From Arachis hypogaea (taxonomy: Eukaryota > Streptophyta > Magnoliopsida > Fabales > Fabaceae), in assembly GCF_003086295.3 (NCBI RefSeq), contig NC_092053.1, positions 117,200,445 to 117,264,444 of the forward strand: DNA of 64,000 nt, given 5' to 3'. A program made the translations under genes and the position numbers. Positions 8,735 through 33,740 of the stretch are shown piece after piece; within the stretch, counting starts at the first letter, position 1; each line of letters begins with the position of its first letter. The notes beneath the pieces were generated by a model. The model searched no databases and was not told the DNA's origin. It saw nothing but the letters and a program-made list of their open reading frames with translations.

Positions 8735-8745
8735 ATGCCCCCAAT
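8735..8745 (-). promoter_or_regulatory. polypurine tract of the Tat-like element
   Basis: Read on the minus strand this is ATTGGGGGCAT, a purine-rich run directly before the 3' LTR. It is where plus-strand DNA synthesis would be primed. Confidence 0.75.
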
Positions 8746-12708: not shown

Positions 12709-14454
12709 TGATGAGCGGATAATTTATACGCTTTTTGGCATTGTTTTTAGTATGTTTTTAGTAGGATCTAGTTACTTTTAGGGATGTTTTCATTAGTTTT
12801 TATGTTAAATTCACATTTCTGGACTTTACTCTGAGTTTGTGTTTTTTTCTGTGATTTCAGGTATTTTCTGGCTGAAATTGAGGGACTTGAGCAGAAATCA
12901 GATTCAGAGGTTGAAAAAGAACTGCTGATGCTGTTGGATTCTGACCTCCCTGCACTCAAAGTGGATTTTCTGGAGCTACAGAACTCAAAATGGTGCGCTT
13001 CCAATTGCGTTGGAAAGTAGACATCCAGGGCTTTCCAGCAATATATAATAGTCCATACTTTGGCCAAGAATTGATGACGTAAACTGGCGTTCAACGCCAG
13101 CCTTCTGCCCAAATCTGGCGTCCAGCGCCAGATAAGGATCCAAAACCAGAGTTGAACGCCCAAACTGGCACAGAAACTGGCGTTCAACTCCACAAATGGC
13201 CTCTGCACGTGTAACACTCAAGCCCAAGCCCAAGCACACACCAAGTGGGCCCCAAAAGTGGATTTATGCATCAATTACTTACTCATGTAAACCCTAGTGA
13301 CTAGTTTATTATAAATAGGACCTCTTACTATTGTATTAGGCATCCTGGATCGTATTTTGATCCTGTGATCTCGTTTAGGGGGCTGGCCATCTCGGCCATG
13401 CCTGAACCTTCACTTATGTATTTTCATACGGTAGAGTTTCTACACTCCATAGATTAAGGTGTGGAGCTCTGCTGTTCCTCAAAGATTAATGCAAAGTACT
13501 ACTGTTTTCTATTCAATTCTTCTTATTTCGCTTCTAAGATATCCATTCGCACCCAAGAACGTGATGAAGGTGATGATTATGTGTGACGCTCATCATCCTT
13601 CTCCCTTATGAACGCGTGCCTGACAAACACTTCTGTTCTACACGAAATAAGCTAGAATGAGTATCTCTTAGATCTCCTAACCAGAATCTTCGTGGCGTAA
13701 GCTAGAATGATGGCGGCATTCAAGAGAATCCGGAAAGTCTAAACCTTGTCTGTGGTATTCCGAGTAGGATTCAATGATTGAATGACTGTGACGAGCTCCT
13801 AACTCGCGATTGCAGGGCGTTAGTGACATACGCAAAAGGATAGTAAATCCTATTCCAGCATGATCGAGAACCGACAGATGAATAGCCGTGCCGTGACAGG
13901 GTGCGTGAGCATATTATTCACTGAGAGGATAAGATGAAGCCATTGACAAGGGTGATGCCTCCAGACGATTAGCCGTGCCGTGACAGGGCATTGGATCATT
14001 TTCCCGAGAGATGACCGAAAGTAGCCATTGACAGTGGTGATGTATCACAGAAAGCCAGCCATGGAAAGGAGTAAGACTGACTGGATAAAGATAGCAGGAA
14101 AGCAGAGGTTCAGAGGAACGAAAAGCATCTCCATTCGCTTATCTGAAAATCCTACCAATGAATTACATAAGTATCTCTATCCCTCTTTTATTAATTAATA
14201 TTCGAAAACATCATTATCACTTTATATCTGCCTGACTGAGATTTACAAGGTGACCATAGCTTGCTTCATACCAACAATCTCCGTGGGATTCGACCCTTAC
14301 TCACGTAAGGTATTACTTGGACGACCCAGTGCACTTGCTGGTTAGTTGTACGGAGTTGTGTCCACACATAGAGCCACAATGAAGATTCAATACAATTATA
14401 TATTGTTAATCTCACACAAGTACAAAGAACAGGACAACACAATTTCGTGCACCA
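12709..14454 (+). repeat. 5' LTR of the FIDEL/Feral-like element
   Basis: Starts TGATGAGCGGATAATTTATA and ends TTCGTGCACCA. It includes palindromes CTGGCGTTCAACGCCAG at 13084-13100 and CTGGCGTCCAGCGCCAG at 13115-13131. TTATAAATAG at about 13309-13318 is a likely TATA box. Confidence 0.93.
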
Positions 14455-14460
14455 AGTTTT

Positions 14461-14477
14461 TGGCGCCGTTGCCGGGG
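14461..14477 (+). promoter_or_regulatory. primer binding site (tRNA-Asp type)
   Basis: TGGCGCCGTTGCCGGGG lies six bases after the 5' LTR. It complements the 3' end I recall for plant tRNA-Asp including CCA, the usual primer of this group. Confidence 0.8.
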
Positions 14478-14519
14478 ATTGTTTGAGTTTGGACAACTGA
14501 CGGTTCATCTTGTTGCTCA

Positions 14520-16494
14520 GATTAGGTAATTTTATTTTTATTTTATTTTCAAAAATTTTTCAAAAAAAAATATTTCTAAAATTTTCTCATCTGTTTTCGA
14601 AAAAAAAATAAAAATGTTTTCAAAAATAAATTATTCTATGGCTTCAAAATTTTTAAGAATGAATTCTAGTGTTTCATGAAATATGTTGAATCATATCTGG
14701 CTGTAAAGCCATACCCAAACTACTTTGGGATTGGTATTCAACTAATCACTCCAGCCCATGTAATTATATGTTGCAGCCTGGCTGGCTGTAAAGCCATGTC
14801 TAAATTCATTTGGACTGAGGCTTGCAATTGGTTATCAAGAGCAAGCTAGTTGGAGCTAATCCACCTGCTACTGTTCCTGATCTACCCGCTGTTGATCCAC
14901 GATCACCTGCTGAAGCTTGGTTGGCCATTGGCCATGTCTAGTGTTTTGGACTGAAGCTTTCATTGAAAGCTTGGCTGGCTAGTGAGCCATGTCTAATTCC
15001 TGGACTGAAGCTTTAGACTAACATGGCAAGATTCCTGGAATTCATATTAAAAATTTTGGAATCCTTATTTTTCCTTTTTATTTTCGAAAAATATAAAATA
15101 AAAATCCAAAAAAATTAGAAAATCATAAAAATCAAAAATATTTTCTGTTTCTTGTTTGAGTCTTGAGTCACGTTATAAGTTTGGTGTCACTTGCATATGC
15201 ATCTTGCATTTTTCGAAAATTTCATGCATTCATAGTGTTCTTCATGATCTTCAAGTTGTTCTTGGTAAGTCTTCTTGTTTGATCTTGATGATTTTTTGTT
15301 TTGTGTCTTTTCATGTTTATCATATGCATTCTTGAAATTCTTAGTGTTTAAGCATTAAAGAATTCTAAGTTTGGTGTCTTGCATGTTTTCTTTGCATTAA
15401 AAAAATTTTTCAAAAATATGTTCTTGATGTTCATCATGATCTTCATAGTGTTCTTGGTGTTCATCTTGACATTCATAGCATTCTTGCATGCATTCATTGT
15501 TTTGATCTAAAAATTTCATGCATTGCATAATTTTCATGTTTTTCATAAAAATTTCAAAAATCAAAAAAATATCTTTCCCTTTTTCTCTCATCAAATTCGA
15601 AAATTTGAGTTGACTTTTTCAAAAAATTTTAAAATCAAAGTTGTTTCTTATGAGTCAAATCAAATTTTCAATTTGAAAATCTTATCTTTTTCAAAAATCA
15701 AATCTTTTTCAAAATTATTAGTTATTTTCGAAAATTCCAAAAAAAATATTTTTCAAAAATCTTTTTCTTATTTTTATCACAAATTTTCGAAAATAACATA
15801 ATCAATTAATGTTTTGATTCAAAAAATTTGAAGTTTGTTACTTGCTTGTTAAGAAAGATTCAAATTTTAAGTTCTAGAATCATATCTTGTGATTTCTTAT
15901 GAATCAAGTCATTAATTGAGATTTTAAAAATCAAATCTTTTTCAAAACTAATCCTATCATATCTTTTCAAAATATCTTCTTATCTTATCTTTTTCAAAAA
16001 TATCTTTTCAAAATATCTTTTCTAACTTCCTAACTTCTTATCTTTTCAAAAATTTGTTTCAACTAACTAACTAACTTTTTGTTTGTTTCTTAACTTTTTC
16101 AAAACCACCTAACTAACTCTCTCTCTCTCAATTTTCGAAAATATCTTCCATCTTTTTCAAAAATTTCTTTTTAATTAACTAATTATTTTTATTTTTTATT
16201 TTTGAATTCAAAAATTTTCGAAAAATACTAACTAATTTTCAAAAAACCAATTTTCCAAAATCACTAACTCTTTTTCAAAATAATTTTCGAAAATTATTCC
16301 TCCCCCATCTCATTCTATTTATTCATTCATGTCCTAACATCTCATCTCACATTCCAATCCTCACAGTTGTGTTTCTTCCTTTACATCACATCCTCTATCT
16401 CCCCCTCTTCTTCTACTTACAAAGGGATCCCTATACTGTGGTATAAAGGATCTCTATTATTATTATCATTTTTCTGGCCATTCTTCCTTGTCAT
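14520..16494. other. A/T-rich leader of the FIDEL/Feral-like element
   Basis: About 2 kb between primer site and gag. It is dominated by runs such as TTTTTCAAAAATC and TTTTCGAAAAT and has AAGTTTGGTGT at 15177 and 15367. Short repeats of a GCTGGCTGTAAAGCCAT type occur at 14697-14800 and again, shorter, near 14973. No coding region is recognisable. Confidence 0.6.
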
Positions 16495-18822
16495 ATGAGC
16501 AGGAGCAAGGATAAGAACATTCTTGTGGAAGCAGATCCAGAACCTGAAAGAACTCTGAAGAGAAAATTGAGAGAAGCTAAAATACAACAATCCAGAGATA
16601 ACCTTTCAGAAATTTTCGAACAGGCAGAGGAGATGGCAGGCGAAAATAATAATAATGAAAGGAGGATGCTTGGTGACTTTACTGCACTTAATTCCAATTT
16701 ACATGGAAGAAGCATCTCCATTCCTGCCATTGGAGCAAACAACTTTGAGCTGAAACCTTAATTAGTTTCTCTGATGCAGCAGAACTGCAAGTTTCATGGA
16801 CTTCCATCTGAAGATCCTTTTCAGTTCTTAACTGAATTCTTGCAGATATGTGATACTGTTAAGACTAATGGAATAGATCCTGAAGTCTACAGGCTCATGC
16901 TTTTCCCCTTTGCTGTAAGAGACAGAGCTAGATTATGGTTGGATTCTCAACCCAAAGACAGCCTGAACTCTTGGGATAAGCTGGTCACGGCTTTCTTAGC
17001 CAAGTACTTTCCTCCTCAAAAGCTGAGCAAGCTTAGAGATGATGTTCAAACCTTCAGACAGAAAGAAGGTGAATCTCTCTATGAAGCTTGGGAAAGATAC
17101 AAACAGTTGACCAAAAAGTGTCCTTCTGACATGCTTTCAGAATGGACCATCCTGGATATATTCTATGATGGTTTATCTGAGCTATCAAAGATGTCACTGG
17201 ACACTTCTGCAGGTGGATCCATTCACCTAAAGAAAACGCCTGCAGAAGCTCAAGAACTCATTGACATGGTTGCTAATAACCAGTTCATGTACACTTCTGA
17301 AAGGAATCCTGTGAGTAATGGGACACCTATGAAGAAGGGAGTTCTTGAAGTTGATACTCTGAATGCCATATTGGCTCAGAATAAAATATTGACTCAGCAA
17401 GTCAATATGATCTCTCAGAGTCTGAATGGAATGCAAGCTGCATCCAACAGTACTCAAGAGGCATCTTCTGAAGAAGAAGCCTATGATCCTGAGAACCCTG
17501 CAATAGCAGAGGTAAATTACTTAGGTGAACCTTATGGAAACACCTATAACTCAACATGGAGAAATCATTCAAATTTCTCATGGAAGGATCAAAAGCCTCA
17601 ACAAGGCTTTAATAATGGTGGAAGAAACAGGTTTAGCAATAGCAAGCCTTTTCCATCATCAACTCAGCAACAGACAGAGAACTCTGAACAAAATGCTTCT
17701 AATTTAGCAAATCTAGTCTCTGATCTATCTAAGGCCACTGTAAGTTTCATGAATGAAACAAGGTCTTCCATTAGAAATTTGGAAGCACAAGTGGGCCAGT
17801 TGAGTAAAAGGATCACTGAAATCCCTCCTAGTACTCTCCCAAGCAATACAGAAGAGAACCCAAAAGGAGAGTGCAAGGCCATTGACATAAGTGCCATGGC
17901 CGAACCTATGAGGAGAGGAGAGGACGTGAATCCCAAGGAGGAAGACCTCCTGGGACGTCCAGTGATCAATAAGGAGCTTCCCTCTGGGGAATCAAAGGAC
18001 TCTGAGGCTCATCTAGAGACCATAGAGATTCCATTGAACCTCCTTATGCCCTTCATGAGCTCTGATGAGTATTCCTCTTCTGAAGAGAATGAGGATGTCA
18101 CTGAAGAGCAAACTGCCAAGTTTCTTGGTGCAATCATGAAGCTGAATGCCAAATTATTTGGCATTGATGCTTGGGAAGTTGAACCTCCCTTGTTCATCAA
18201 TGAACTAAGTGATCTGGATCAACTGACATTGCCTCAGAAGAGACAGGATCCTGGAAAGTTCATAATACCTTGTACCATAGGCACCATGATCTTTAAGGCT
18301 CTGTGTGACCTTGGTTCAGGAATAAACCTCATGCCCCTCTCTGTAATAGAGAAACTGGGAATCTATGGGGTGCAAGCTGCTAAAATCTCACTGGAGATGG
18401 CAGACAGCTCAAGAAGACAGGCTTATGGACAAGTAGAAGATGTATTAGTAAAGGTTGAGGGCCTTTACATACCTACTGATTTCATAGTCCTGGATACTGG
18501 AAAGGAAGAGGATGAATCCATCATCCTAGGAAGACCTTTCCTGGCCACAGCAAGAGCTGTGATTGATGTTGACAGAGGTGAAATAGTCCTTCAATGGAAT
18601 GAGAACTCCCTTGTATTCAAAACTCAAGGGTCTCCCTCTGCAACCATGGAGAGGAAGCAGAAAAAGCTTCTCTCCAAGCAGAGTCAACCAGAGCCCCCAC
18701 AGTCAAACTCTAAGTTTGGTGTTGGGAGGCCACAACCAAACTCTAAGTTTGGTGTTGAACTCCCATATCCAAACTCTAAGTTTGGTGTTGGAGAGTCTCA
18801 ACAAAGCTCTGCACATCTGTGA
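16495..18822 (+). pseudogene. gag-protease ORF of the FIDEL/Feral-like element, one in-frame stop
   Basis: ATG 16495 opens a frame that is stopped once by TAA (16759-16761, one transition from CAA) and then runs to 18822. The second part is 682 codons. A retrotransposon gag domain covers its residues about 20-130 (FHGLPSEDPFQFLTEFLQIC, and a YEAWERYKQL stretch). A hydrophilic linker rich in Asn, Ser and Gln follows. A pepsin-type aspartic protease sits at about residues 490-620, with CDLGSGINLMP as active-site loop (Asp-Leu-Gly in place of Asp-Thr/Ser-Gly, common in this group) and IILGRPFLATA. The tail is made of three repeats of a PNSKFGV unit encoded by the AAGTTTGGTGT repeat. No RT follows. 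Confidence 0.88.
18712..18788 (+). repeat. three tandem copies of the AAGTTTGGTGT motif at the end of gag-protease
   Basis: Copies lie at 18712, 18745 and 18778, an exact 33-bp period, so the protein reads an 11-residue repeat. Further copies of the 11-mer lie at 15177, 15367, 19499 and 20955, giving seven in the element. The last directly precedes the 3' LTR. Confidence 0.9.
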
Positions 18823-19025
18823 GGCTCCATGAGAGCCCACTGTCAAGCTATTGACATTAAAGAAGCGCTTGTTGGGAGGCAACCCAATGTTTATCTAATT
18901 CTTATTTTTATTGTTTTTCATATTTTCTTAGGTTCATGATCATGTGGAGTCACAAAATAAATATAAAAATTGAAAACGGAATCAAAAACAGCAGAAGAAA
19001 AATCACACCCTGGAGGAGCATCTGT

Positions 19026-19165
19026 CTGGCGTTCAAACGCCAGAACAGAGCATAGTTCTGGCAGTGAACGCCCAGAATGGGGGCATCCTGGCGTTCAACG
19101 CCAGAAAAGACAGCAAAGGGGCGTTGAACGCCCAAAATAGGCACCAACCTGGCGCTGAACGCCCA
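19026..19165 (+). repeat. array of palindromes related to those in the LTR
   Basis: CTGGCGTTCAAACGCCAG (19026-19043), CTGGCGTTCAACGCCAG (19088-19104), GGGCGTTGAACGCCC (19119-19133) and an imperfect copy near 19149-19166 follow one another every 30 to 60 bases. The second is identical to the LTR palindrome. Confidence 0.9.
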
Positions 19166-19474
19166 GAGTTGTGTGCAAGGGCATTTTACATGCCTAAATT
19201 GGTGCAGGGATGTAAATGCCTTGACACCTCAGGATCTGTGGACCCCACAGGATCATCTCAGGATCTGTGGACCCCACAGTATCCCCACCTACCTCATCAT
19301 CTCTCTTCCCATTCATGATCATCCCTTCTACTTTCCATTTACCACTCACATCCATACACCCACTACCTTCAAAATTCAAGATCTCTCTCTCACCCAATCC
19401 CACCCATATGGCCGAATACACATTCCCATCCATCTCCTCCATATATCCTTCTTATTCTTCTTTTCTTTCTTCTT

Positions 19475-19509
19475 TTGCTCGAGGGCGAGCAACATTCTAA
19501 GTTTGGTGT
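19475..19509 (+). other. hairpin plus AAGTTTGGTGT module, internal copy
   Basis: TTGCTCG, loop AGGG and CGAGCAA form a perfect 7-bp stem (19475-19492). Six bases later comes AAGTTTGGTGT (19499-19509). The same layout recurs at 20931, 27251 and 28664. Confidence 0.85.
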
Positions 19510-19612
19510 GGTAAAAGCATAGCTTTTTTGTTTTTTTTCCATAACCATTGATGGCACCTAAGGCCAGAGAAACCTCTAGAAAGAGGAAAGGGAAGACAAA
19601 AGCTTCCATCAA

Positions 19613-19659
19613 GGGTCTATAACTCAGTGGTAGAACATTTGACTGCAAATCAAGAGATC
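19613..19659 (+). other. tRNA-Cys-like 5' segment
   Basis: The stretch starting GGGTCTATAACTCAGTGG and containing TTTGACTGCAAATCAAGAG matches the acceptor, D-arm and anticodon-arm half of plant tRNA-Cys(GCA) as I remember it, with about five C/T or G/A changes over 47 bases. The T-arm half is not recognisable, so this is not a working tRNA gene. It lies just after a short ORF start (ATG 19551). Confidence 0.6.
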
Positions 19660-19881
19660 CCTGAGATACCTCAGGGGATACATTTTCTTCCACACAATTA
19701 TTGGAAGCAACTAAGGGTGGAACATCAAGAGCACTCCATCATCCTTCATGAAATCAAAGAAGATCTAAAAGCAATGAAGGAGGAGCAGCAAAGACAAGGA
19801 AGAGACATAGAAGAGCTCAAGGACATCACTAAGGTGGATTCATTCCTTGTTCTTATTTTCTCTGTTTTTCGTTTTCTATGA

Positions 19882-20930
19882 TATGTGCTTATCTATGTTT
19901 GTGCCTCCATTACATGATCATTAGTAGTTAGTAACTTTGTCTTAAAGATATGAATGTCCTATGAATCCATCACCTCTCTTAAATGAAAAATGTTTTAATT
20001 CAAAAGAACAAGAATTACATGAGTTTCGAATTTATCCTTGAACTTAGTTTAATTATATTGATGTGGTGACAATGCTTCTTGTTTTCTGAATGTATGCTTG
20101 AACAGTGCATATGTCTTTTTAAAGTTGTTGTTTAAGAATGTTAAATATGTTGGCTCTTGAAAGAATGATGACTAGGAGACATGTTATTTGATAATCTGAA
20201 AAATCATAAAAATGATTCTTGAAGCAAGAAAAAGCAGCAAAGAGCAAAGCTTGCAGAAAAAAAAAAGAGAAAAAAAAGGGGGCGAAAAAAAAAATAGAAA
20301 AAAAAATAGAAAGAAAAAGAAAAAGCAAGCAGAAAAAGCCAATAACCCTTAAAACCAAAAGGCAAGGGCAAATAAAAAGGATCCCAAGGCTTTGAGCATC
20401 AGTGGATAGGAGGGCCTAAAGGAATAAAATCCTGGTCTAAGCGGCTAAACCAAGCTGTCCCTAACCATGTGCTTGTGGCGTGTAGGTGTCAAGTGAAAAC
20501 TTGAGACTGAGTGGTTAAAGTCAAGGTCCAAAGCAAAAGAAGAGTGTGCTTAAGAACCCTGGACACCTCTAAATTGGGGACTTTAGCAAAGCTGAGTCAC
20601 AATCTGAAAAGGTTCACCCAATTATGTGTCTGTGGCATTTATGTATCCGGTAGTAATACTGGAAAACAAAGTGCTTAGCGCCACGGCCAAGACTCATAAA
20701 ATAGCTGTGTTCAAGAATCATCATACTGAACTAGGAGAATCAATAACACTATCTGAACTCTGAGTTCCTATAGATGCCAATCATTCTGAACCTCAATGGA
20801 TAAAGTGAGATGCCAAAACTATTCAAGAGGCAAAAAGCTATAAGTCCCGCTCATATGATTGAAACTATGTTTCATTGATAGTTTGGAATTTATAGTATAT
20901 TCTCTTCTTTTTATCCTATTTGATTTTCAG
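19882..20930 (+). other. non-coding 3' region of the FIDEL/Feral-like element
   Basis: About 1 kb with no gene. A purine-rich block of A and G runs is at 20224-20345. Several phrases such as GTGCTTGTGGCGTGTAGG and ATGTGTCTGTGGC look like diverged repeats of one unit. Confidence 0.55.
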
Positions 20931-20967
20931 TTGCTTGGGGACAAGCAACAATTTAAGTTTGGTGTTG
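20931..20967 (+). promoter_or_regulatory. hairpin plus AAGTTTGGTGT module next to the 3' LTR
   Basis: TTGCTTG, loop GGGA and CAAGCAA (20931-20948), six bases, then AAGTTTGGTGT (20955-20965), two bases before the 3' LTR. By position the last part is the region where plus-strand synthesis would be primed. Confidence 0.85.
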
Positions 20968-22711
20968 TGATGAGCGGATAATTTATACGCTTTTTGGCAT
21001 TGTTTTTAGTATGTTTTTAGTAGGATCTAGTTACTTTTAGGGATGTTTTCATTAGTTTTTATGTTAAATTCACATTTCTGGACTTTACTATGAGTTTGTG
21101 TGTTTTTCTGTGATTTCAGGTATTTTCTGGCTGAAATTGAGGGACTTGAGCAGAAATCAGATTCAGAGGTTGAAAAAAGACTGCTGATGCTGTTGGATTC
21201 TGACCTCCCTGCACTCAAAGTGGATTTTCTGGAGCTACAGAACTCAAAATGGAGCGCTTCCAATTGCGTTGGAAAGTAGACATCCAGGCTTTCCAGCAAT
21301 ATATAATAGTCCATACTTTGGCCAAGAATTGACGACGTAAACTGGCGTTCAACGCCAGCCTTCTGCCCAAATCTGGCGTCCAGCGCCAGATAAGGATCCA
21401 AAACCAGAGTTGAACGCCCAAACTGGCACAGAAACTGGCGTTCAACTCCACAAATGGCCTCTACACGTGTAACACTCAAGCCCAAGCCCAAGCACACACC
21501 AAGTGGGCCCCAGAAGTGGATTTATGCATCAATTACTTACTCATGTAAACCCTAGTGACTAGTTTATTATAAATAGGACCTCTTACTATTGTATTAGGCA
21601 TCCTGGATCGTATTTTGATCCTGTGATCTTGTTTAGGGGCTGGCCATCTCGGCCATGCCTGAACCTTCACTTATGTATTTTCATACGGTAGAGTTTCTAC
21701 ACTCCATAGATTAAGGTGTGGAGCTCTGCTGTTCCTCAAAGATTAATGCAAAGTACTACTGTTTTCTATTCAATTCTTCTTATTTCGCTTCTAAGATATC
21801 CATTCGCACCCAAGAACGTGATGAAGGTGATGATTATGTGTGACGCTCATCATCCTTCTCCCTTATGAACGTGTGCCTGACAAACACTTATGTTCTACAC
21901 GAAATAAGCTAGAATGAGTATCTCTTAGATCTCCTAACCAGAATCTTCGTGGCGTAAGCTAGAATGATGGCGGCATTCAAGAGAATCCGGAAAGTCTAAA
22001 CCTTGTCTGTGGTATTCCGAGTAGGATTCAATGATTGAATGACTGTGACGAGCTCCTAACTCGCGATTGCAGGGCGTTAGTGACATACGCAAAAGGATAG
22101 TAAATCCTATTCCAGCATGATCGAGAACCGACAGATGAATAGCCGTGCCGTGACAGGGTGCGTGAGCATATTATTCACTGAGAGGATAAGATGAAGCCAT
22201 TGACAAGGGTGATGCGTCCAGACGATTAGCCATGCCGTGACAGGGCATTGGATCATTTTCCCGAGAGATGACCGAAAGTAGCCATTGACAGTGGTGATGT
22301 ATCACAGAAAGCCAACCATGGAAAGGAGTAAGACTGACTGGATGAAGATAGCAGGAAAGCAGAGGTTCAGAGGAACGAAAAGCATCTCCATTCGCTTATC
22401 TGAAAATCCTACCAATGAATTACATAAGTATCTCTATCCCTCTTTTATTAATTAATATTCGAAAACATCATTATCACTTTATATCTGCCTGACTGAGATT
22501 TACAAGGTGACCATAGCTTGCTTCATACCAACAATCTCCGTGGGATTCGACCCTTACTCACGTAAGGTATTACTTGGACGACCCAGTGCACTTGCTGGTT
22601 AGTTGTACGGAGTTGTGTCCACACATAGAGCCACAATGAGGATTCAATACAATTATATATTGTTAATCTCACACAAGTACAAAGAACTGGACAACACAAT
22701 TTCGTGCACCA
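20968..22711 (+). repeat. 3' LTR of the FIDEL/Feral-like element
   Basis: Near-identical to 12709-14454, with the same palindromes at 21342-21358 and 21373-21389. It is followed by TSD GTGTT (22712-22716). Confidence 0.93.
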
Positions 22712-23610
22712 GTGTTCTCTTGGCACTTGACGCATTTTCTTACGAATTCTCTGGAGACCTTCATCATCAATGGCCAGTAATACCCTGCTCTAATGAGCTT
22801 TCTTGCTAAAGCTTTGCCCCCGATGTGGTGACCACAGCACCCCTCGTGGACCTCTCTAAGCACATAGTCTGTTTGATCGGGATGCAGGCATTTCAATAAA
22901 GGTTGGCTGATCCCTTTTTTAAACAACTGGCCCTGTATGATTGCATACTTGGCCGCTTCCCGCCTTATCGTTTTGGCCAGCTTGTCGTCGCTGGGGAGCC
23001 TCGCCTTCTCCAGAAAATCAACGATCGGGTCCATCCAAGAGGGTTCTGATTGAGTCAGTTGCAAGACCACAGCTGGTTCCTTAACTAAACCCTGAATGAG
23101 AGACTGGTTACCTGCCCCTGGTTTTGTGCTTGCTAGCTTGGACAGGAGGTCTACCCGTGTGTTCTTTTCTCTTGAAACGTGTTGGATCGTGACCTCCTCG
23201 AATTGTTTGCTCAACTCTTTGACCTTCTCCAGATACTTCTGTAACAGTGGATCTCTGGCTTGGTAGGTCCCATTGACCTGAGAGGTAACGACCTGCGAGT
23301 CACTGCATACCTCTATCCTTGTGGCCCCGACCTCCCTAGCCAGGATTAAGCCGCCCAGAAGGGCCTCGTACTCCGATTGGTTGTTTGACACCGGAAACTC
23401 GAACTTGATCAATTGTTCATATATGACCTCGGCTGGGCTTTCCAAGATGATTCCGGCTCCTCCGAACGTTTGGATGGAAGCCCCGTCTACGTGGAGCTTC
23501 CATCGTATGCTCGTCGCCTCGGTTGGGTCTCCCGTTACTTCTTCCAAGAAATCGGCCATGGCCTGCGCTTTAATCGCATGCCTGGGTTCATATTGCAAGT
23601 CATACTAGGA
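22712..23610 (-). pseudogene. pol: RNase H and integrase zinc-binding region
   Basis: Read leftward, an RNase H domain (KLHVDGAS, NNQSEYEALLGGL, CSDSQVV) is followed by an integrase H2C2 finger (H-HHIGGK region and CVKCQ). The frame is open over this stretch and is cut at 22712 by the nested element; pol resumes at 12708. The RNase H Asp and Glu residues are visible. Confidence 0.9.
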
Positions 23611-25277
23611 TAGCTCGATATCCTAAGTCATCATTCTTCCCGCTAAGTCGGGTTTCTGGAGTACTTGGCGGATTCCCTGGTCGGTCCTCACGACCACTTG
23701 ATGACCCTAGAAGTATTGTCGTAATCTACGGGAAGAGGTCAGGAGCGCAAGTGCCAACTTCTCTAATTTGCTGTATCTCAATTTTGCCCCTTGCAGTGCT
23801 TTGCTCACAAAGTAAATTGGCTGTTGGATCTTTCCTTCTTCTCGCACTAACACTGCTGCCATCGCTTCATCCATTATAGCCAAGTACAGGTATAGCGGTT
23901 CTCCGACCTTGGGCTTCCCGAGAACAGGTGGTGTTGCAAGGATCTCTTTGAAATGCTTGAATGCTTCTTCACACGCCGGGGTCCATTCAAATGCTATCCC
24001 CTTTTCATCAGGTTAAAGAATGGTAGCGCCCCAGTAGCCGACGCTCCAAGGAACCGTGATAGCGCGGTGAGCCTCCCTGTCAACCTTTGGACGTCTTTAA
24101 TGTATCCCGGGCTCTTTATCTGGAGTATTACTTCACATTTTTCTGGATTGGCCTCTACCCCTCTTTGGGTTATCATAAATCCCAAGAACTTTTTTGCTTC
24201 CATGGCGAAGGCACATTTAAGTGGGTTGAGCCTCATGCCGTGTTGTCGGAGGGAGGCGAATACGTTTTCCAGATCACCTATGAGGTCATCAGGTCGGGTG
24301 GTCTTTACTAAGATATCGTCTACGTATACTTCCACCGTTTTGCCTATGAGGTCGCTGAATATCTTATTCATCAACCTTTGGTAGGTGGCCCCTGCATTCT
24401 TCAGCCTGAACGGCATTACCTTGTAGCAATATGTCCCCCCCGGCGTTATGAACGCTGTCATCTCCTCGTCTGGCCGGTGCATCAGTATCTGATTGTAGCC
24501 AAAATAAGTATCCATGAAGCTCAGATACCTATATCCCGCCGGCACGTCGATGAGCGCATCTATATTGGGGAGGGGGTAGGAGTCTTTGGGACATGCTTTG
24601 TTAAGATCGGAGTAATCTACGTACATCCTCCATTTCCCATTGTGCTTTCTAACCAGAACTACATTCGACAGCCAAGTCGAGTAGTCGAGTTCCCGGATAA
24701 ATCCCACTTCGAGAAGGCTGGCCGTCTGCCTGGCCACCTCCTCTGCACTTTCTTGTGACATTTTCCTTCTCCTCTGAGTGACCGTCTTGGCCCTCGCGTT
24801 GACGGCCAAGCGATGCAACATAACCTGGGGGTCTATCCCCGACATGTCGGCTGGTGACCAGGCAAACAGGTCGCCGTTAGCCCTGATCATTTCCATTAAA
24901 GGTTTCTTCAGGTCGTGTGGGAGATTCCTGTTCACGAAAGTGAACTTTTCCTCTGTGTCGCCAACCCTGAACCTTTCTAAGTTCCCTTCCGGTTCGGGTC
25001 TGGGTTTGTCATCGACTCTAGCGTCCAGGTCGGCGAGGAATACTCCCGATGCTTCTTTAGATTTCTTCCTTAAGGAAAGACTGGCATTGTCGCAAGCGAC
25101 TACCGTTTCCAAGTCCCCCTTTATGGATCCAACGGATCCGTCGTTAGCGATGAACTTCATTACCAGCATCTTTGTACTGATCACTGCCCCAAGATCGTTG
25201 ATAGTCTTTCTTCCTAGGATGACGTTGTAGGCCGTGGAGTCTCGCAGAACCACGAACTCAGCCATTACCGATCTCCT
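23611..25277 (-). pseudogene. pol: reverse transcriptase and start of RNase H-like tether
   Basis: The open part 23994-25265 shows RT motifs in order: KWRMYVDYSDLNKACPKDSY, LSFMDTYFGYNQI, a GLK-like step changed to RLKNAGATYQRLMNKIF, and the catalytic block VYVDDILVK. A 1-bp frame change near 24010 and TAG stops near 23714 and 23627 disrupt the link to RNase H. The N-terminal side carries the last part of the protease (AYNVILGRKTIN). The right edge at 25277 is the junction with the second nested element. Confidence 0.9.
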
Positions 25278-26505
25278 TGATAAACCACTATTTTATGGTT
25301 TATCTTGTGCTCAATTGAGTGGATTTTATCAATCTTTCATACACTTGTTCATACAAAATGCATGTTTTACATTCTCCTTCCTGATTTTGTGCTATGATTG
25401 AAAACATGCTTCTTTGGACTTATATTTGCTAATATTAATCCTCTCTTATTACTATTCGATGCCTTGATATGTGTGTTAAGTGATTTTAGAGATTACAGGA
25501 CAGGAATGACTCAGAGGATGGAAAGGAAGCATGCAAAAGTGGAAGGAATACAAGAAGTTAAAGAAATTGCTAAGCTGTCCAGCCTGACATCTTCGCACTC
25601 AAACAGTCATAACTTGAGCTACAGAGGTCCAAATGAGATGGTTCTAGTTGCATTGGAAAGATAACATCTGAGGCTTCGCAACTATATATAATTTTCCATA
25701 GCTTCCCCGAAGCCAGATGACGCAAACGCGTGGACGACGCTTCCGCGTCACTTTCCCGCGACCTGTACGTACCAGAATACGCTGGGGGAAATTTTTGGGC
25801 TGTTTTTGACCCAGTTTTTGGCCCAGAAAACACAGATTAGAGGCCATAAAGTCGGAGAATGCATCCATTCATAAGAGGTCTTCGATTATTCACTTTTCAT
25901 AATTTAGATGTAGTTTTTAGAGAGAGATGTTCTCTCCTCTCTCTTAGGTTTTAGGATTAGGATTCCTCTTAAAGGATTTATGATTTCAACTTCCTCTCAG
26001 GTTCAATATTCCTTTTACTTTATATCTCTCTTCTACTTTCAGATACTTTAATGCTTTTGTTTGTTGATTACATATGTTGCCAAATTGGCTTACGAACCAT
26101 TCATGTTAGGAATTTCTTTATTTAATATAAATCGAGGTATTTCAGAATTATGATTACTTTCCTTTATTTATATAAATAATTTAGATTTTTCCTTTTGGCT
26201 TTGGTTCATTAATTGGTGACTCTTGAGTTGTCAAACTCATCGTGATTGCTAATTATTATCTTTGCTGATTGATTTAAATTCTTATAACTCTAGTCTTTCC
26301 TTAGGAGTTGGCTAGGACTTTAGGTGTTAAATTGATTTATCCACTTGACTTTCCTTTGCTTTAGTAAAGGTTAACTAAGTTGGATTAAAACTCAATTCTC
26401 ATCACCATCGATAAGGATAACTAGGATAGAACTTCCAAATTTTCATACCTTGCCAAGAGTTTTATTAGTTATTAATTTATTAATTTCTGTAATTTATTTC
26501 CCTTG
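25278..26505 (+). repeat. LTR 1 of the non-coding LTR element, 3'-truncated
   Basis: It matches LTR 2 from TGATAAACC to about ATTTATTTCCCTTG (26490-26505) and then diverges into interior sequence. LTR 2 goes on for roughly 220 more bases. LTR 1 also lacks about 55 bp around 25730 relative to LTR 2. Confidence 0.85.
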
Positions 26506-27131
26506 CCAATCATGCGAACGCGTGAACCACGCGTCTGCGTCGCATGTGCCGCACAACTTATCCAAATCAGCACCAATTATCTTATCTTTTCTTTTCTAAT
26601 CCTAATTTTTTCTATCTTTTCTTCTTTCTTCTTTCTTTCTTACTTCATCTTTTTAACTTCTCATCCCTCTTTACTTCCATTCTATTTTATTTAGTTTATT
26701 TACATACTTTCATCCATTGCATTTTAACCTTGGGTATATTTTTATTTTCTTTTCTAAAATTATTATTTTTTCATTGGTGTTAAAATTTTTCTCATTCAAC
26801 TGTTACATCTTTTTGAATTATTCTGGTGCTTCATGACTTGTTTTATTCTAATTGGGTATTATTATTCATAAGTCAATGCTAATTTTTATAATACTGATAT
26901 TCCTTTTGCATTGATACGCACTTACACTATTTTGCATTACCCACACCCTCTTCCCCATTGTTGCAATTCTTGCACTATTGATATGTCGTATGCTTCTACT
27001 GTTTTCTCACTGCATGTTGTAGCTACCATGTAATTGAAACCTTTATTATTTGGCATTACCAACCCATATTTTATTTATTTTTCTTATCTTTATTTCTGGG
27101 TTACTTTTCTCCCTTTTCCTCTTCTTTCAGG

Positions 27132-27248
27132 ATGGCCACCGAGGAAGGGAAAAGGAAGAACTTCTATATGGAGAGACAGACAAGTCAATCTGCACAATCT
27201 ATAGAGAAAGGCATCAGTGGGAGCAGCCCGTCCACTTGTACATCTTAG
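27132..27248 (+). CDS. 38-codon ORF in the non-coding LTR element
   Basis: ATG 27132 follows a TTTCAG that looks like a splice acceptor. The product is hydrophilic (begins MATEEGKRKNFY, Ser-rich end) and resembles no family I know. It ends at 27248, two bases before a hairpin. It may be the stump of a gag start. Low confidence that it is translated. Confidence 0.3.
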   Translation: MATEEGKRKNFYMERQTSQSAQSIEKGISGSSPSTCTS

Positions 27249-27250
27249 CA

Positions 27251-27288
27251 TGCACCGAGGACGGTGCAATCTTTAAGTGTGGGGAGGT
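27251..27288 (+). other. hairpin plus AAGTGTGGGGAGGT module, internal copy
   Basis: TGCACCG, loop AGGA and CGGTGCA (27251-27268), six bases, then AAGTGTGGGGAGGT (27275-27288). The 17-mer from 27272 is identical to the one before LTR 2 at 28685. It is followed by CGATACC, reminiscent of the LTR start TGATAAACC. Confidence 0.85.
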
Positions 27289-27352
27289 CGATACCGATCT
27301 CCATGGGTTAGTTATTCTCTTCTCAACACCAATGTCTTATTTTCTTCATTAG

Positions 27353-28663
27353 TTCATTGTTGCATTGCATAATAGATTGCATGTGTAGTTGATTGTTTGC
27401 ATTTAAATACTACTTAGTTGAAAAATAATAAGTTTCTTTCTAGGACCCTATTTTTGAAAAAAAAATTCACTAATTTAAATAAAAAATTAAAATTTTCTAT
27501 GTGTTAAATTTGTTTGAAGTTGTATGTGGAACATGGTTTTTGAGCCAAAGAACACACAACCTGTGAGATTTTGAGATTAATTACATGGTTACATTAGTTA
27601 ACCATAAATATTTTATTCTTGTGTGTTTTCTTCTCTATAATTGCAATCTTTACCTTGTTCCACTCTATATGTCCATTATTTAGTGTATTTACATGCTTGC
27701 ATACGATTGAGGCCATTACTTGTTTTAGCGCACTTCTCCCAAATAAACCCCCTCTATTCCATAACCACATTACTAGCCTTAAGCAGAAAAACAAAATAAA
27801 AATCCCAAGTTAAATCCTTGGTTAGCTTAAGATAGATATTGTGTATAATTTAAGTATGGAGAATTTTATGGGAATATGAGATGATAGAAAAAAAAAGGGA
27901 ATTAAATTGAATAAGTTATTTGAAAATTTGGGAAGCATGCTCATGTGAAATCAAAATAATTAAATTAGCATGTGCATTAAAAAAAATATTAAGTAATTAA
28001 ATAAGGGGATACAAAAAAAAGAAAAAAGAAAAATAATATTACCCCAAATGCAAAATAAAAAGAATCAATGCACATGGGACAAAATTCAAAAATAAGTTTG
28101 ATACATGAGCATGTAATACAAAAGTGGGAAAATTTTGGGTAGCTAGGTAAAGCATTTTAAATTATATAAAGTATGTATATGTTAGGTGAGATCTTAGACT
28201 AATCAAGAATTCACTTTGTTAGCTCACTTAGCCTTATATATATATATATATATACCTTTACCTCAGCCCCATTACAACCCTGAAAAGACCTCATGATGTT
28301 TGCATTGGTATACTAAATATTTGTTGATTGGTTAGATGAAGAACAAGGTTGAGAAAGCATGACTAGGGAAGAGTAGAGTGATTGACCCTAGACACTTGAG
28401 AGTTAGAGTGATATACACTACCAGTGAGGTTCAATGCTTGATTCTATGTTCCCTGCTTTCATGGGCTGTCTTCTTACAAGTTTACTTGTCTTTTATTGTA
28501 TAATTTGAATTAGTGAAATCTGATTTATGTTTGTCTTGAAGAGCTTATTTACTTTTAACCAAGTAGATAGAAACATCTTTGCATGTAGTTGCATTCATAT
28601 AGATAGGTTGCATTTCATACATTCTACCACTCCTCTTCACTCCCTTATAGCTTCTCTTGAGCT
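27353..28663. other. non-coding interior of the LTR element
   Basis: AT-rich sequence without coding potential. A short TA run is at about 28237-28254. Only the module at 28664 stands out. Confidence 0.55.
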
Positions 28664-28701
28664 TAGCATGAGGACATGCTATTGTTTAAGTGTGGGGAGG
28701 T
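28664..28701 (+). promoter_or_regulatory. hairpin plus polypurine tract next to LTR 2
   Basis: TAGCATG, loop AGGA and CATGCTA (28664-28681), six bases, then AAGTGTGGGGAGGT (28688-28701), directly against LTR 2. The purine run fits a polypurine tract. Confidence 0.85.
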
Positions 28702-29887
28702 TGATAAACCACTATTTTATGGTTTATCTTGTGCTCAATTGAGTGGATTTTATCAATCTTTCACACACTTGTTCATACAAAATGCATGTTTTACATTCTC
28801 CTTCCTGATTTTGTGCTATGATTGAAAATATGCTTTTTTGGACTTATATTTGCTAATATTAATCCTCTCTTATTACTATTTGATGCCTTGATATGTGTGT
28901 TAAGTGATTTTAGAGATTACAGGACAGGAATGACTCAGAGGATGGAAAGGAAGCATGCAAAAGTGGAAGGAATACAAGAAGTTGAAGAAATTGCTAAGCT
29001 GTCCAGCCTGACCTCTTCACACTCAAACGGTCATAACTTGAGCTACAGAGGTCCAAATGAGATGGTTCTAGTTGCGTTGGAAATATAACATCCGGGGCTT
29101 CGCAACGATATATAATTTGCCATAGCTGCCCCGAAGCCAGATGACGCAAACATGTGGATCACGCGGACGCATGACCTGGCAGAAACGCAATCCACGCAAA
29201 CGCGTGGACGACGCTTCCGCGTCACTTTCCCGCGACCTGTACGTACCAGAATACGCTGGGGGCAATTTCTGGGCTGTTTTTGACCCAGTTTTCGGCCCAG
29301 AAAACACAGATTAGAGGCCATAAAGTGGGGGAATGCATCCATTCATAAGAGGTCTTCGATTATTCACTTTTCATAATTTAGATGTAGTTTTTAGAGAGAG
29401 AGGTTCTCTCCTCTCTCTTAGGTTTTAGGATTAGGATTCCTCTTAAAAGATTTAGGATTTCAACTTCCTCTCAGGTTCAATATTCCTTTTACTTTATATC
29501 TCTCTTCTGCTTTCAGATACTTTAATGCTTTTGTTTGTTGATTACTTATGTTGCCAAATTGGCTTACGAACCATTCATGTTAGAATTTTCTTTATTTAAT
29601 ATAAATCGAGGTATTTCAGAATTATGATTACTTTTCTTTATTTATATAAATAATTTAGATTTTTCCCTTTTAGTTTTGGTTGATTAATTGGTGACTCTTG
29701 AGTTGTCAAACTCATCCACTACAAAAAAAAAGAGTTTAAAATGGCATTTATATTACGGCAGTTTTGAAAAACCGCCGTAATATTCAAACATTATGGCATT
29801 TTTTGTGGCTGCCATAATTAACTTGTATTTGGTGGCGGTTCTGGTAATTCTGGCGGTTTTGAACCGCCATTATCACGTAGGTATAAA

Positions 29888-30358
29888 ATGCAAAAATTTG
29901 CAATCCCTAATTCCAGAACCCTTAACACTACGCATACGGTGGCCTCTCCCTTCTCTCTTTCGTCTATGTTGCTTCGTCCACTACGCTTTCACACTTCAGC
30001 ATCGCTGCCTCCAACGAAACTGAAGGTTCCAAGCCACACACGCGCTTTCTTCCCCATAGTCGCTTCCTCACGTCATGGAACCACGTTTTGCCGACGTTGT
30101 TTCTCCATAGTCGCTGCCCCTGGCCTGTGCGATGACCTCCGATCCTCTTTCTCTCCGACGACAATCTTCTCCAATGATATCTCATCCAGCGACGACCTCC
30201 TTCGGCGACATCTCTTTCAGCCGCGATCTCCTTCGGTGACGTCTCCTTCAGCTTCCTCTCCTTGTCGTCCTAACTATATGTCTTCTCCGCGAAAATCTTT
30301 AACGCCTCCCTTTCGTTCTGGATATGGCAGGTTAGCTTCCTACTTTTTTACATTCTAG
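29888..30358 (+). CDS. unidentified GC-richer ORF in the CACTA element, probably captured DNA
   Basis: A 156-codon ORF with a Ser, Pro and Arg-rich composition and no domain I recognise. Its N-terminal half, with many Ser and Thr and few acidic residues, resembles an organelle transit peptide. The composition contrasts with the AT-rich surroundings. It could be the first exon of a captured gene (GTTAGC near 30330 could be a donor). Translation is unproven. Confidence 0.3.
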   Translation: MQKFAIPNSRTLNTTHTVASPFSLSSMLLRPLRFHTSASLPPTKLKVPSHTRAFFPIVASSRHGTTFCRRCFSIVAAPGLCDDLRSSFSPTTIFSNDISSSDDLLRRHLFQPRSPSVTSPSASSPCRPNYMSSPRKSLTPPFRSGYGRLASYFFTF

Positions 30359-31022
30359 GGTTCAAAAGTGCAAATTATTTCTCTGCTTTTTGCTTCTGTG
30401 AAATTGGATATGCTGATAAGGAATTGAAATTGGAATTAATTAATTCCTATCATAGATAAATTTGTAATAAGTTACATCTTTGAATTCTCCTTTATCCAGT
30501 TATTTTGGAATTAAAGATATCTAAGGATACTGAATGTAAGGATACTGAATGAACATTTTCTAAATTTAGGAGATTCAATGAAATTGAAAAGAAAGAAAGG
30601 ATGAATTACAGCATGAGAGTTAGTAATGGAATGAAGAAGTTGCAGCTTCTCGTGCAGTAGTGCTGCTCTCTTTTGCTAGTGTGTTAGTTCAGTATGTAGC
30701 AATTGTCTGGTTTCTATGTTGAGAATAGACTCAAGGAAGAGGTATAGAGCATCTGCTGAAATTTGATACGTCTCTGTTGTTAGATTTAGTCATAGTTTGT
30801 ACACATAATGGCAGTATAGAAGCAAAATAGTTTTGTTCCTCTGTGCTATCTGTTGAAATATTTTTAGTATTTAGGGAACCAAATTTTATATGCCAGATTT
30901 TGTGCTTATGTGACAGGTTTTAATTACTGGCCTAGTTTTGACTGCGCAGTACTTGTGATGTTTATTGCTTCGTGTAACAATAAAGTTACTTTATTCTCTG
31001 AATATATAAATAATTAAGCTGG

Positions 31023-31200
31023 CAGCCGCAACATCATTTAGCTCAATTAGATTTTGGAATTCTAAAGTTAGAATTTGAGTTTGACATGTTGACTTGATTT
31101 GGATAGCCGCAGCATCGTTTAGCTCAATTAGATTTTGAAATTTTAAAGTTAGAATTTGAGTTTGACATGTTGACTTGATTTGGACAGCCGCAACATCATT
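31023..31200 (+). repeat. tandem duplication of about 81 bp
   Basis: Two copies of a unit beginning AGCCGCARCATCRTTTAGCT and ending GACTTGATTTGGA lie at 31023 and 31104. A third partial copy starts at 31185. Confidence 0.8.
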
Positions 31201-32264
31201 CTATCATATGTGCTACTGTGCTGTGAAATTCTCCGATGGCATTCTCCTACGTCGGGAATTTCGTCCATCGAGCTACTGTGCTGTGAGATTCTCTTTCGGC
31301 AGACTCACGAGGTAGGTTCTCCCTCTTTTCCTTTGTTCTCTTGGTTTGCACTTGATCTGTGATTTGATTTTGCTGAATTCAAATGCTCATATGTGATTAT
31401 TGCATCTGAAACTTGATCTACTCCTTTTTTATTTTATGGTTTTGATTTTCATTCTTTAATCCTCTTCAAGGTTGGAATTAATTTTGTTTGTAGCCCCATT
31501 CTTGTGTTCCATTGTTGAATTTCAGTAATTGGTGGTGTATATTTAGTGTATATTTCACTAGGTCTCGCAGCTGGTCATATGTCGAAAGACCCGGTCTTCT
31601 CCTACTAGGTGCCTTGTTGATTGCTCAGCTGGTAAGCATAAACCTCTTATTCCTCTTTCAGCATATGAAATTTTGTTTTCAAAATTATTATAACACCCAA
31701 AAATTGTATATCTCAAGTCTCTATGTTCATGGAAATAACTTGATATACAACTCTAAATTGAAATGCTAATTAAGTAGTATGTTTCATCATTAGAACATGC
31801 ATATCTATTATCTCATTGTTTCCATCTTAAACAGTAGTTTGTTATTCTTTATTAAACAAGTTTTAAGACCACTTTTGCAGTTTCTAATGCTTCACTGTTA
31901 TAATTATGCAGCTATCTCTAGTGAAATTCCCTCCAATCAACCATCCAAAATACTTGTAACAACTATTTTCAATTAGTGGTTCAATGATTGCAGTGATGAT
32001 ATCAAAAGATGCTGCTCTCATGCTTTGAACAAACTTCAGGATCATTATGGTTGGAAGGTGCTGCATGTAAATTTTGTTTTGGAAAAATAGCTTTTAACCC
32101 CTTTCTTTCTTTGTTGAATTTCTAATTGCAATATAATTGAACTGCAATTTGTTCACAATTTTCATGTAGTTCCTTTATCTATGGCTTAGTTAATTAGTAT
32201 CACAAATAAAATAAAATGAATACCCCCTATACATCTCTCTTGTTCATTGGTATTGGTTACTACA

Positions 32265-32312
<48 letters not shown>
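32265..32312 (+). repeat. (TTA)n microsatellite
   Basis: An uninterrupted run of about 15 ATT/TTA units within the CACTA interior. Confidence 0.95.
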
Positions 32313-32315
<3 letters not shown>

Positions 32316-32890
32316 GATACTTAGCTTCAGTTGCGGCTTTTACTTGTGAACATGCCTTTGATGTCTCTAGTCTCTAGTAATGATAATAATGATATAATAA
32401 TAAATAGAGCGTATATAGTAAAAGTTAAATCAGATATTAAAAAATGAAATAGCATGTCTGCAGGAATGTGGTAACTATGTGAGAGAGTTAGTATGTGTGT
32501 GAAAGAGAAGGGAAATGATGTTCTATTTGATTTGGCTTTACAAGAGTCCTTATAGAGTGGAAGATTGAAATAACTACTTATATGTTATGGCTTTCAAAAC
32601 CATGGCCAATTATTTTGTGGTTGCAAGGGAGGACCTGTAATAACTGATAACTACTTATACGTTATTGTGTTAAATTGAAATATTTATGAATAGTAAGATA
32701 TAATTGTTAAAATATTTTAATTGGAATTGGACTAGTGCTGCTTATGAGGTGTGCATGAAAAGTACACTACTAAATATTTGGCCATTGCTCCGGGTTGGAA
32801 TGCATGGCAGTTAAAGTTGTGTTTTATTTTATTTACTAATTTTTTAGTTGCTTTTCTAGGAATTCATATGTAATAATCTTTTCTCTTGCA

Positions 32891-33740
32891 GACCAATCCA
32901 TTTGATTTATTTGAGACTTTTTTGGGCTAAGTATGGGTGGCTTTTGTCGTGGCATGGATTCTACTGGATTTGGAACATGTCGAAGTACTGTTACTAAGGG
33001 TCAAGACATCCAGTAAGTTATGCAGCATTTAGTTGGGTATTTCTTGTGCCCATGTTAGTCAGTTCAATAATTTTTATACTTAGCTTCATAAGGTAAATGT
33101 TATCCGTGTTTAAAAGTTTGATTCAAATGTCAACAGGTATGATTTCTCCTTGACATTTTCTGAGGCAATTTTCGAAATAGAGAAAGAATTTGACCTTTCT
33201 CATTTGGAAACATGTGAAGTCTGTAGTGGTACTGGAGCAAAGATTGGCTCTAAAATGAAAATATGTTCAACTTGTGATGGGAGGGGTCAGGTGATGAGGA
33301 CTGAACAAACACCTTTTGGATTGTTCTCATAGGTAATTTGTTATATGTCTGAGGGGAGATGATATCATTTTTTTCTTGATTTGTATGCCCTGCTACCTGA
33401 TATGAAGTAAAAAAAAATAAAAAAACCTTAATAATGTGTTGTATGATTGATGCATTGACCTATGTCTTCCAAAGAAGTTTCTACATTGATTTGGCATGTG
33501 CATTTTCTCTTGAGTTATTGATACCTGCCTCATTTTTACCTTTGAGAATAATTAGTTATGTTCTTATCAATTGCTTATATTAATTTGTTAGTTATTCTTT
33601 ATTCTTATGCAGGTTTTCTTACATGATGTGTACATGAAAATATATTTCTAATCCCATTTTTTAGTATTAGGTTTCAGTTTGCTCGACCTATGGAGGTGAT
33701 GGTGAAATCATATCTGAATACAGGGTGCAACAGTGAGGAA
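32891..33740 (+). pseudogene. captured fragment of a chloroplast-type DnaJ (HSP40) gene
   Basis: Three exons with introns are visible. The first, 32891-33012 (FDLFETF then a 1-bp frame change, then MDSTGFGT), matches the Gly/Phe linker. The second, 33137 to about 33332, has the zinc-finger motifs CEVCSGTG and CSTCDGRG and ends at a TAG where a Gln codon would be expected. The third, from 33671, has CSTYGGDG with the second Cys lost. Introns are 33013-33136 (GTAAGT...ACAG) and about 33333-33670. The J domain and substrate-binding C-terminus are absent. Because introns are kept, genomic DNA and not a cDNA was captured. The order matches plastid DnaJ proteins as I recall them. Confidence 0.8.

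Follow-up and report, generated by a model that had tools for sequence, protein, structure and literature searches.

In this work we analysed a 64,000-nt stretch of the peanut genome (Arachis hypogaea, contig NC_092053.1, positions 117,200,445 to 117,264,444; called the window below), in which two long terminal repeat (LTR) retrotransposons, elements 1 and 2, each carry the same module twice, a hairpin with a purine loop followed at a short distance by a purine-rich tract. Judged from sequence, these sites are most likely hairpin-tagged polypurine tracts (PPTs) of Athila-lineage LTR retrotransposons, in which an RNA structure most likely helps to define plus-strand primers, the internal copy providing a second origin. 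The module, its pairing across different stems, its positions, its duplication and its distance to the LTR are observed directly in the letters.

Hairpin and tract at the four window sites

All four modules lie on the plus strand and start at 19475, 20931, 27251 and 28664; each consists of a perfect 7-bp stem with a purine loop (in site order AGGG, GGGA, AGGA and AGGA), 6 nt, and then AAGTTTGGTG or AAGTGTGGGG. In element 1 the internal hairpin TTGCTCG-AGGG-CGAGCAA (19475–19492) is followed after 6 nt by the tract AAGTTTGGTGT (19499–19509), and the 3' hairpin TTGCTTG-GGGA-CAAGCAA (20931–20948) by the PPT AAGTTTGGTGTTG (20955–20967), which adjoins the 3' LTR at 20968. In element 2 the perfect internal stem TGCACCG-AGGA-CGGTGCA (27251–27268) and the perfect 3' stem TAGCATG-AGGA-CATGCTA (28664–28681) precede two tracts that both read exactly AAGTGTGGGGAGGT (27275–27288, and 28688–28701 for the 3' PPT), the second adjoining the TG of the LTR at 28702. 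From the AAG of the tract to the TG of the 3' LTR there are 13 nt in element 1 and 14 nt in element 2, and the internal and 3' copies are 1,456 nt (element 1) and 1,413 nt (element 2) apart. A preliminary description of this DNA had given the layout of stems, loops, 6 nt and tail together with these distances; the layout is exact in the window and both pairs of distances are correct.

Both strands of the window were scanned for perfect 7-bp hairpins with a 4-nt loop that either have a purine loop or are followed within 42 nt by AAGTKTGG, and only the four modules and one unrelated site were found. That shuffled sequence might match as often had been named as the check to be made: on neither strand does any of 200 dinucleotide-shuffled versions of the window contain the strict layout, and AAGTKTGG is accompanied by a hairpin in 4 of its 12 occurrences in the window (4-nt loops) versus 10 of 1,132 in shuffles (loops of 3–6 nt, spacers of 0–20 nt). 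Chance matches in prokaryotic and viral sequences that have the same inner loop and tract were examined in two sets, and none (0 of 73 and 0 of 13) has more than two consecutive stem pairs beyond the closing pair.

When the four window sites are aligned, 100% of the cells pair and five of the seven pairs are changed on both sides, with a covariation score of 0.952 versus 0.279 when shuffled. The predicted mean stem probability is 0.82–0.95 at 19475, 0.96–1.0 at 20931 and 0.98 at 27251; the remaining 87 perfect 7-bp hairpins of the same strand have a median of 0.00, but their G+C content is far lower. No Rfam family reaches its cut-off over any module, the match at 19475 to MIR5298 (19 bits, cut-off 70) being well under it. 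Kissing between loops was set aside, as by reading the loops lack self-complementarity.

The hairpin across the Arachis genome

All genome-wide data come from one genome, that of the window (2.56 Gb). The string AAGTKTGGKGNNGTTGATAA, which joins the element-2-type tract to the start of the LTR, has 14,504 matches in it, and its reversed control has one. About 100 of these junctions were listed and 28 were analysed (8 loci and 20 picked by hand): all 28 have at least six of seven standard pairs and 26 have at least six Watson–Crick pairs, taking the best of registers 11–15, versus 14 of 1,288 upstream control windows scored alike. The junctions used registers 12 and 13 only.

A broader sample was defined without regard to the hairpin. 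Four classes of sites, the four window sites included, were set by the tract and the letters downstream of it, and the best of registers 12–14 was scored; at least six of seven standard pairs are present in 60 of the 63 sites, namely 31/31 of the 3' type 2, 10/10 of the 3' type 1, 10/10 of the internal type 1 and 9/12 of the internal type 2. Of the 63 loops, 59 read AGGA, GGGA or AGGG (of the others, one is AGAA, one is GGTA and two are different), and the loop lies 13 nt from the tract in 50 sites, 12 nt in seven and 14 nt in six. The strictly fixed 6-nt spacer of the preliminary description is not supported by this comparison: across the genome most spacers are 6 nt long, and some are 5 or 7 nt.

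A third sample consisted of 20 mid-chromosome stretches of 10 kb taken at round coordinates (200 kb). A hairpin with at least six Watson–Crick pairs, allowed anywhere at 10–16 nt, precedes 20 of their 54 tract cores, always at 13 nt (16 cases) or 14 nt (four cases); one of the 20 is a copy of an open reading frame (ORF) repeat in stretch L124 and looks like chance. The mirrored band downstream satisfies the same rule at 2 of the 54 cores, four bands further upstream never do, and random positions do in 155 of 20,000 cases. The other tract cores are mostly leader or ORF copies of the 11-mer AAGTTTGGTGT, plus decayed modules. A covariance model built from the four window sites gave 29 hits with E < 0.001 and one at 0.001 in these stretches, which the model had not seen; in 200 kb from 26 of 69 bacterial loci, which contain GAGGAC and the tract, it gave none with E < 0.001, the best being 0.0027. 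Plant relatives outside the Arachis genome were sought among viral contigs (by pattern and protein), genome contigs (69 stretches, all prokaryotic), and plasmids and phages (by protein), and none was confirmed.

Six distinct perfect stems occur: TAGCATG, AAGCATG, TTGCTTG, TTGCTCG, TGCACCG and AGCATCG. For the 29 unique hairpins, a set that includes the decayed ones, pairing holds in 89% of the cells versus 59% when shuffled (maximum 65.5%), 57 cells are changed on both sides versus 19 (maximum 28), and the covariation is 0.741 versus 0.223 (maximum 0.319); this statistic ignores kinship, the register was picked for pairing and the copies are related, so that none of these figures is corrected for the tree. 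For the 22 register-13 copies of the element-2 3' family, pairs of copies differ on average by 0.076 and 0.051 per site in the two stem arms and by 0.023 in the loop, versus 0.352 in one half of the spacer and 0.170 in the other. The earlier idea that a structure is kept by paired change and is tied to the PPT is thus upheld by the hairpin-blind sites, by the six stems and by the covariation.

Lineage and order of the elements

Read in the sense direction, nine of the 20 stretches (L119, L121, L123, L124, L126, L129, L130, L133 and L134) have the internal module first, then env-like homology and then the 3' module; in four others (L120, L125, L128 and L131) there are two modules and env homology was not detected. 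In L116, L119, L123 and L128 the internal module is preceded by homology to reverse transcriptase (RT) and integrase. We also considered whether the two modules are a constant length apart; this was rejected, as the distance varies from about 1.2 to 3.7 kb in the sampled stretches. This order, with pol homology upstream in some cases, indicates that the internal copy corresponds to the extra PPT reported, one in each linker, for Athila4 and Calypso (PMC2829016, citing Wright and Voytas 2002). The preliminary description regarded the internal duplication as a trait of elements that lack pol; this is not supported, since in relatives the internal module also stands between pol homology and the env-like ORF.

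Several features bear on the lineage. Element 1 alone has an Athila-type Gag (Retrotrans_gag, 2.8e-20), whose homologues we take to be of the Athila lineage, and it alone has a primer binding site (PBS) of the tRNA-Asp type, that of element 2 being lost. An extra env-like ORF is present as a remnant in element 1 and as homology between the modules in the nine stretches, and none was found in element 2. Elements 1 and 2 lack RT; that of L116, L117, L119, L121 and L128 is 62–67% identical to protein P0116 and 30–35% to the Tat-type RT of the window, and that of L123 and L130 is 45–47% identical to P0116.

A model for the action of the hairpin

From these arrangements we infer that the tracts prime DNA synthesis and that the RNA folds into the hairpin, which takes effect by making RT pause. 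On balance we favour, on the strength of sequence and position, a model in which the sites are hairpin-tagged PPTs, the 3' copy primes the plus strand at the LTR edge, the internal copy is a second origin and the hairpin acts through a pause. The 3' copy would mark the primer from which plus-strand synthesis begins at the edge of the LTR, and the internal copy, lying between pol (or gag) and the env-like ORF, would be a second plus-strand origin, as the lentiviral central PPT is. RT moving along the genomic RNA would pass U3, the tract and the short spacer and would then pause at the foot of the hairpin; during this pause its RNase H site would lie some 18–20 nt behind, at the tract/U3 edge, and the pause would help to cut the 3' end of the primer at the right place.

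All nine sites measured in the stretch scan, in which a wide range was allowed, have 19 or 20 nt between the foot of the 7-bp stem and the LTR. The polymerase and RNase H sites of the RT of human immunodeficiency virus (HIV) are 18–20 bp apart (PMC7831940), and the nearness of the two distances makes an RT "ruler" possible. Pausing and polymerisation-dependent cleavage can be brought about by RNA structure; in the HIV group one conserved RNA structure is found at both the central PPT and the PPT, and RNase H cleavage driven by pausing has been suggested for it (PMC4439019). The specific version, in which the hairpin is a ruler that stalls RT so that RNase H would cut 18–20 nt behind and fix the 3' end of a weakly purine primer, and in which the hairpin–primer unit between pol and env would be a second origin and a plant counterpart of the lentiviral central PPT, is tentative and in our view rather doubtful.

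A number of observations weigh against these proposals. At 28664 the predicted stem probability falls from 0.94 with 60-nt flanks to 0.33 with 200-nt flanks, and with 200-nt flanks a large part of each tract is itself predicted to be paired. Compared with shuffles of the whole 56–66-nt pieces, the fold energy is unremarkable at 19475 (z −0.37) and 20931 (z −1.62), being better at 27251 (z −2.64) and 28664 (z −2.80). Three of the 12 internal type-2 sites lack the hairpin as defined, as do four of the 13 sites with an LTR-like start in the stretches (nine have it), and five of the seven copies of the tract 11-mer in element 1 have no module hairpin. L127 has env-like homology and a 3' module and no detected internal module. 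Because the copies are related, independent changes in the stems are few. A sequence-only model gives 28 hits below 0.001 at nearly the same sites, 16–22 bits lower for the top ones, so that structure raises the score but is not needed for detecting the sites. In the 41 class-defined sites the distance from stem foot to LTR is 20 nt in 25, 19 nt in 15 and 18 nt in one, a narrow spread that is partly built in, as the class patterns and registers allow only about 17–21 nt. The ruler distance is borrowed from HIV RT, and the value for the RT of plant Ty3/gypsy elements may differ. For HIV itself, the structure involves a helix at the 3' side of the tract and would not explain cleavage exactly at the 3' end (PMC4439019), and in Ty3 the RNase H is placed in the second RT subunit and no central PPT is known (PMC5371799).

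Other explanations

The hairpins could instead be packaging or Gag-binding signals, purine-loop stem-loops bound by nucleocapsid that stand beside PPTs by descent, with the 11-mer repeated in the leader and 3' region belonging to the same recognition set. Purine tetraloops are known from retroviral packaging stems, RGGR loops are present in 59 of the 63 sites, and the 11-mer recurs in the leader of element 1, L116 and L119, the usual place of packaging signals; however, these leader copies have no hairpin, and packaging does not need the tight distance between hairpin and tract (13–14 nt where 10–16 was allowed). We consider this explanation unlikely.

Somewhat less probable still is that the internal module is a relic, left when an env-like region was inserted between an old PPT and the LTR, so that only the 3' copy works. 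The internal copy does stand ahead of the env-like homology in all nine three-part stretches, and the stems are decayed in 3 of the 12 internal type-2 sites; however, a relic would be expected to decay, whereas 16 of the 22 internal sites keep all seven standard pairs, and do so with stems of their own (TGCACCG, AGCATCG, TTGCTCG).

In element 1 the env-like start is, by reading, 52 nt downstream of the internal tract, which could suggest that the module, being shortly upstream of the env-like ATG, controls env expression through splicing or translation start. The same module, however, adjoins the 3' LTR, and in L119 the detected (C-terminal) env homology starts 668 nt past the module, so that we regard such a role as very improbable. 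Finally, although the descriptor was derived after the fact, from the four window sites, chance or a compositional artefact is practically negligible and is refuted by the hairpins at 60 of 63 sites picked by other criteria and by the absence of more than two consecutive stem pairs from all 86 chance tract matches.

Element 1

Element 1 spans 12711–22711 on the plus strand, with LTRs that are 99.0% identical. The 5' LTR (12711–14454) has the ends TGATGAGC...GTGCACCA and the element is flanked on both sides by the 5-bp target duplication GTGTT; the 3' LTR (20968–22711) was placed by self-BLAST, in which 12701–14454 matches 20959–22711 with 98.9% identity, and by reading of its end. Six nucleotides past the 5' LTR is the PBS TGGCGCCGTTGCCGGGGA (14461–14478), which presumably complements the 3' end of plant tRNA-Asp. 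In Diaspora and Calypso the primer is tRNA-Asp and the PBS lies 5 bp after the LTR (PMC1142308).

Contrary to the impression of a coding-free element, element 1 has an intact gag-protease ORF of 686 amino acids (16762–18822, plus strand), in which Pfam recognizes Retrotrans_gag and, under the curated cut-off, Asp_protease (1.6e-4). Many of its homologues are from Arachis, and some are gag-RT proteins; no RT was found in element 1. On the minus strand, antisense to this ORF, 17029–17136 matches Rfam snoR71 with 44 bits (cut-off 40). Downstream of the internal tract is an env-like ORF remnant (19551–19830, plus strand), made of a start that by reading resembles P0126 and of a C-terminal part in another frame; its longer homologues match PF20167 (Pfam Transposase_32) under the family cut-off. 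Between the two env-like parts lies a tRNA-like stretch (19613–19686; 17.1 bits, under the Rfam cut-off) whose likeness we take to be to tRNA-Cys. A similar peptide is present in P0122, P0126 and P0160, and a template jump to a tRNA may therefore have given rise to a subfamily. In Arabidopsis, pol is reported to be missing from most Athila elements, and some elements retain intact gag and env ORFs (PMC2410132), so a structure such as that of element 1 is ordinary for the lineage.

The tract 11-mer AAGTTTGGTGT has seven exact sense copies in element 1 (15177–20965) and no exact copy elsewhere in the window. With simple sequence filtered out, the 10-mers that recur most in the internal region are those of this 11-mer. 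Besides the two copies in the modules, two are in the leader (15177–15187, with no hairpin, and 15367–15377, with no module hairpin), and three are in tandem and in frame at the end of the ORF (18712–18788, 33-nt period), where they encode the peptide SKFGV. KFGV also occurs three times in P0002, P0003 and P0009; among the 120 Gag homologues listed, it is found near the C-terminus in eight (P0001–3, 5, 6, 9, 12 and 16) and elsewhere in P0076. The seven-copy arrangement is also present in L124 and part of it in L129, and leader copies are also present in L116 and L119, both with pol homology. In addition, the 11-mer is one arm of a 6–8-bp hairpin in 13 of 54 copies versus 302 of 10,800 with shuffled flanks, many of the former being homologous ORF copies (examples are L117:4379–4613 and 18704–18788 of the window).

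Element 2 and the surrounding nest

Element 2 looks like a deletion copy because the 3' end of its 5' LTR and its PBS are lost. This LTR occupies 25277–26505 on the plus strand, with a TG at 25278, its reach to 26505 being deduced from the match of 26240–26505 to 34666–34931; the first part of the 3' LTR is at 28702–29716 on the same strand, and the LTR resumes near 34666 after an interruption. The LTR parts are 96.8% identical. Element 2 has no ORF of 150 codons, and no env-like homology was found in it. Its internal module keeps, at 27244–27252, the string CTTAGCATG of the 3' module (28662–28670), which holds the 5' arm of the 3' hairpin and here overlaps the start of a different hairpin, as if one hairpin had replaced another. 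The interruption of the 3' LTR is a CACTA-like insertion (29717–34665) with, by reading, the ends CACTACAAAAAA; it contains two copies of an 81-bp repeat (31024–31185).

A minus-strand element (8298–37470), which from its domains we take to be of the Tat type, holds elements 1 and 2 as nested insertions. Its LTR pieces are at 37034–37470 and 8298–8734, and on the same strand are gag (37006–35864), RT (25292–23997), RVT_3/H2C2 (23604–22672), by reading an integrase-like part below 12710, and a PPT at 8744. In this element, the one of its type that was examined, only a 4-bp stem precedes the PPT, at a different distance.

Comparison with known systems

Athila4 and Calypso, env-bearing members of the Athila lineage, have a second PPT in their linker, as do the peanut elements, in which it also lies before the env-like ORF; the Athila4 and Calypso copies are known here through a citing paper, in the accessible text of which no hairpin is mentioned (PMC2829016). 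Lentiviruses likewise have the PPT twice, internally and at the LTR, with an RNA structure shared by both (PMC4439019), and an internal copy as in their central PPT is present here. The HIV helix, however, involves the 3' end of the tract, whereas the peanut hairpin is separate from the tract and 5–7 nt upstream. Sireviruses, of the Ty1/copia group, repeat the same tract several times within an element and have an inverted repeat precisely placed beside the terminal PPT, but one arm of that repeat is inside the LTR, their upstream PPTs lack it, whereas the internal peanut PPT also has its hairpin, and the tract sequence differs; multiple PPTs are called unique to Sireviruses within Ty1/copia (PMC2829016). 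Since both arms of the peanut hairpin are upstream of the tract, it is not the Sirevirus repeat, although no search aimed at PPT-spanning repeats was made. The Sirevirus octamer AGGGGGAG, found 10 bp before the LTR, is absent from the window tracts, which read AAGTTTGGTGTTG and AAGTGTGGGGAGGT. We know of no hairpin tag at PPT2 of Ty1. PPT2 resembles the internal module as an internal plus-strand origin (from a title cited in PMC2829016) but lies within pol.

No earlier description of a PPT-adjacent hairpin in plant gypsy elements was found in the open-licence papers searched, which is weak evidence as subscription papers are mostly outside such a search, and a search of sequences printed in papers found nothing on retrotransposon ends. 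The extra PPT of the lineage, by contrast, is already known. The action of the PPT as plus-strand primer is called mechanistically unknown even for HIV (PMC4439019). In conclusion, the peanut Athila-type elements carry a probable RNA hairpin at a nearly fixed distance before a probable primer tract, once at the terminus and once internally, and the terminal and internal units suggest a retrovirus-like two-origin copying marked by structure. Two hairpin-tagged tracts per element, at a near-constant distance from the LTR edge, provide a natural covariation data set and a simple series of templates for in vitro work, and the module helps annotators to orient such elements and to locate their 3' ends.

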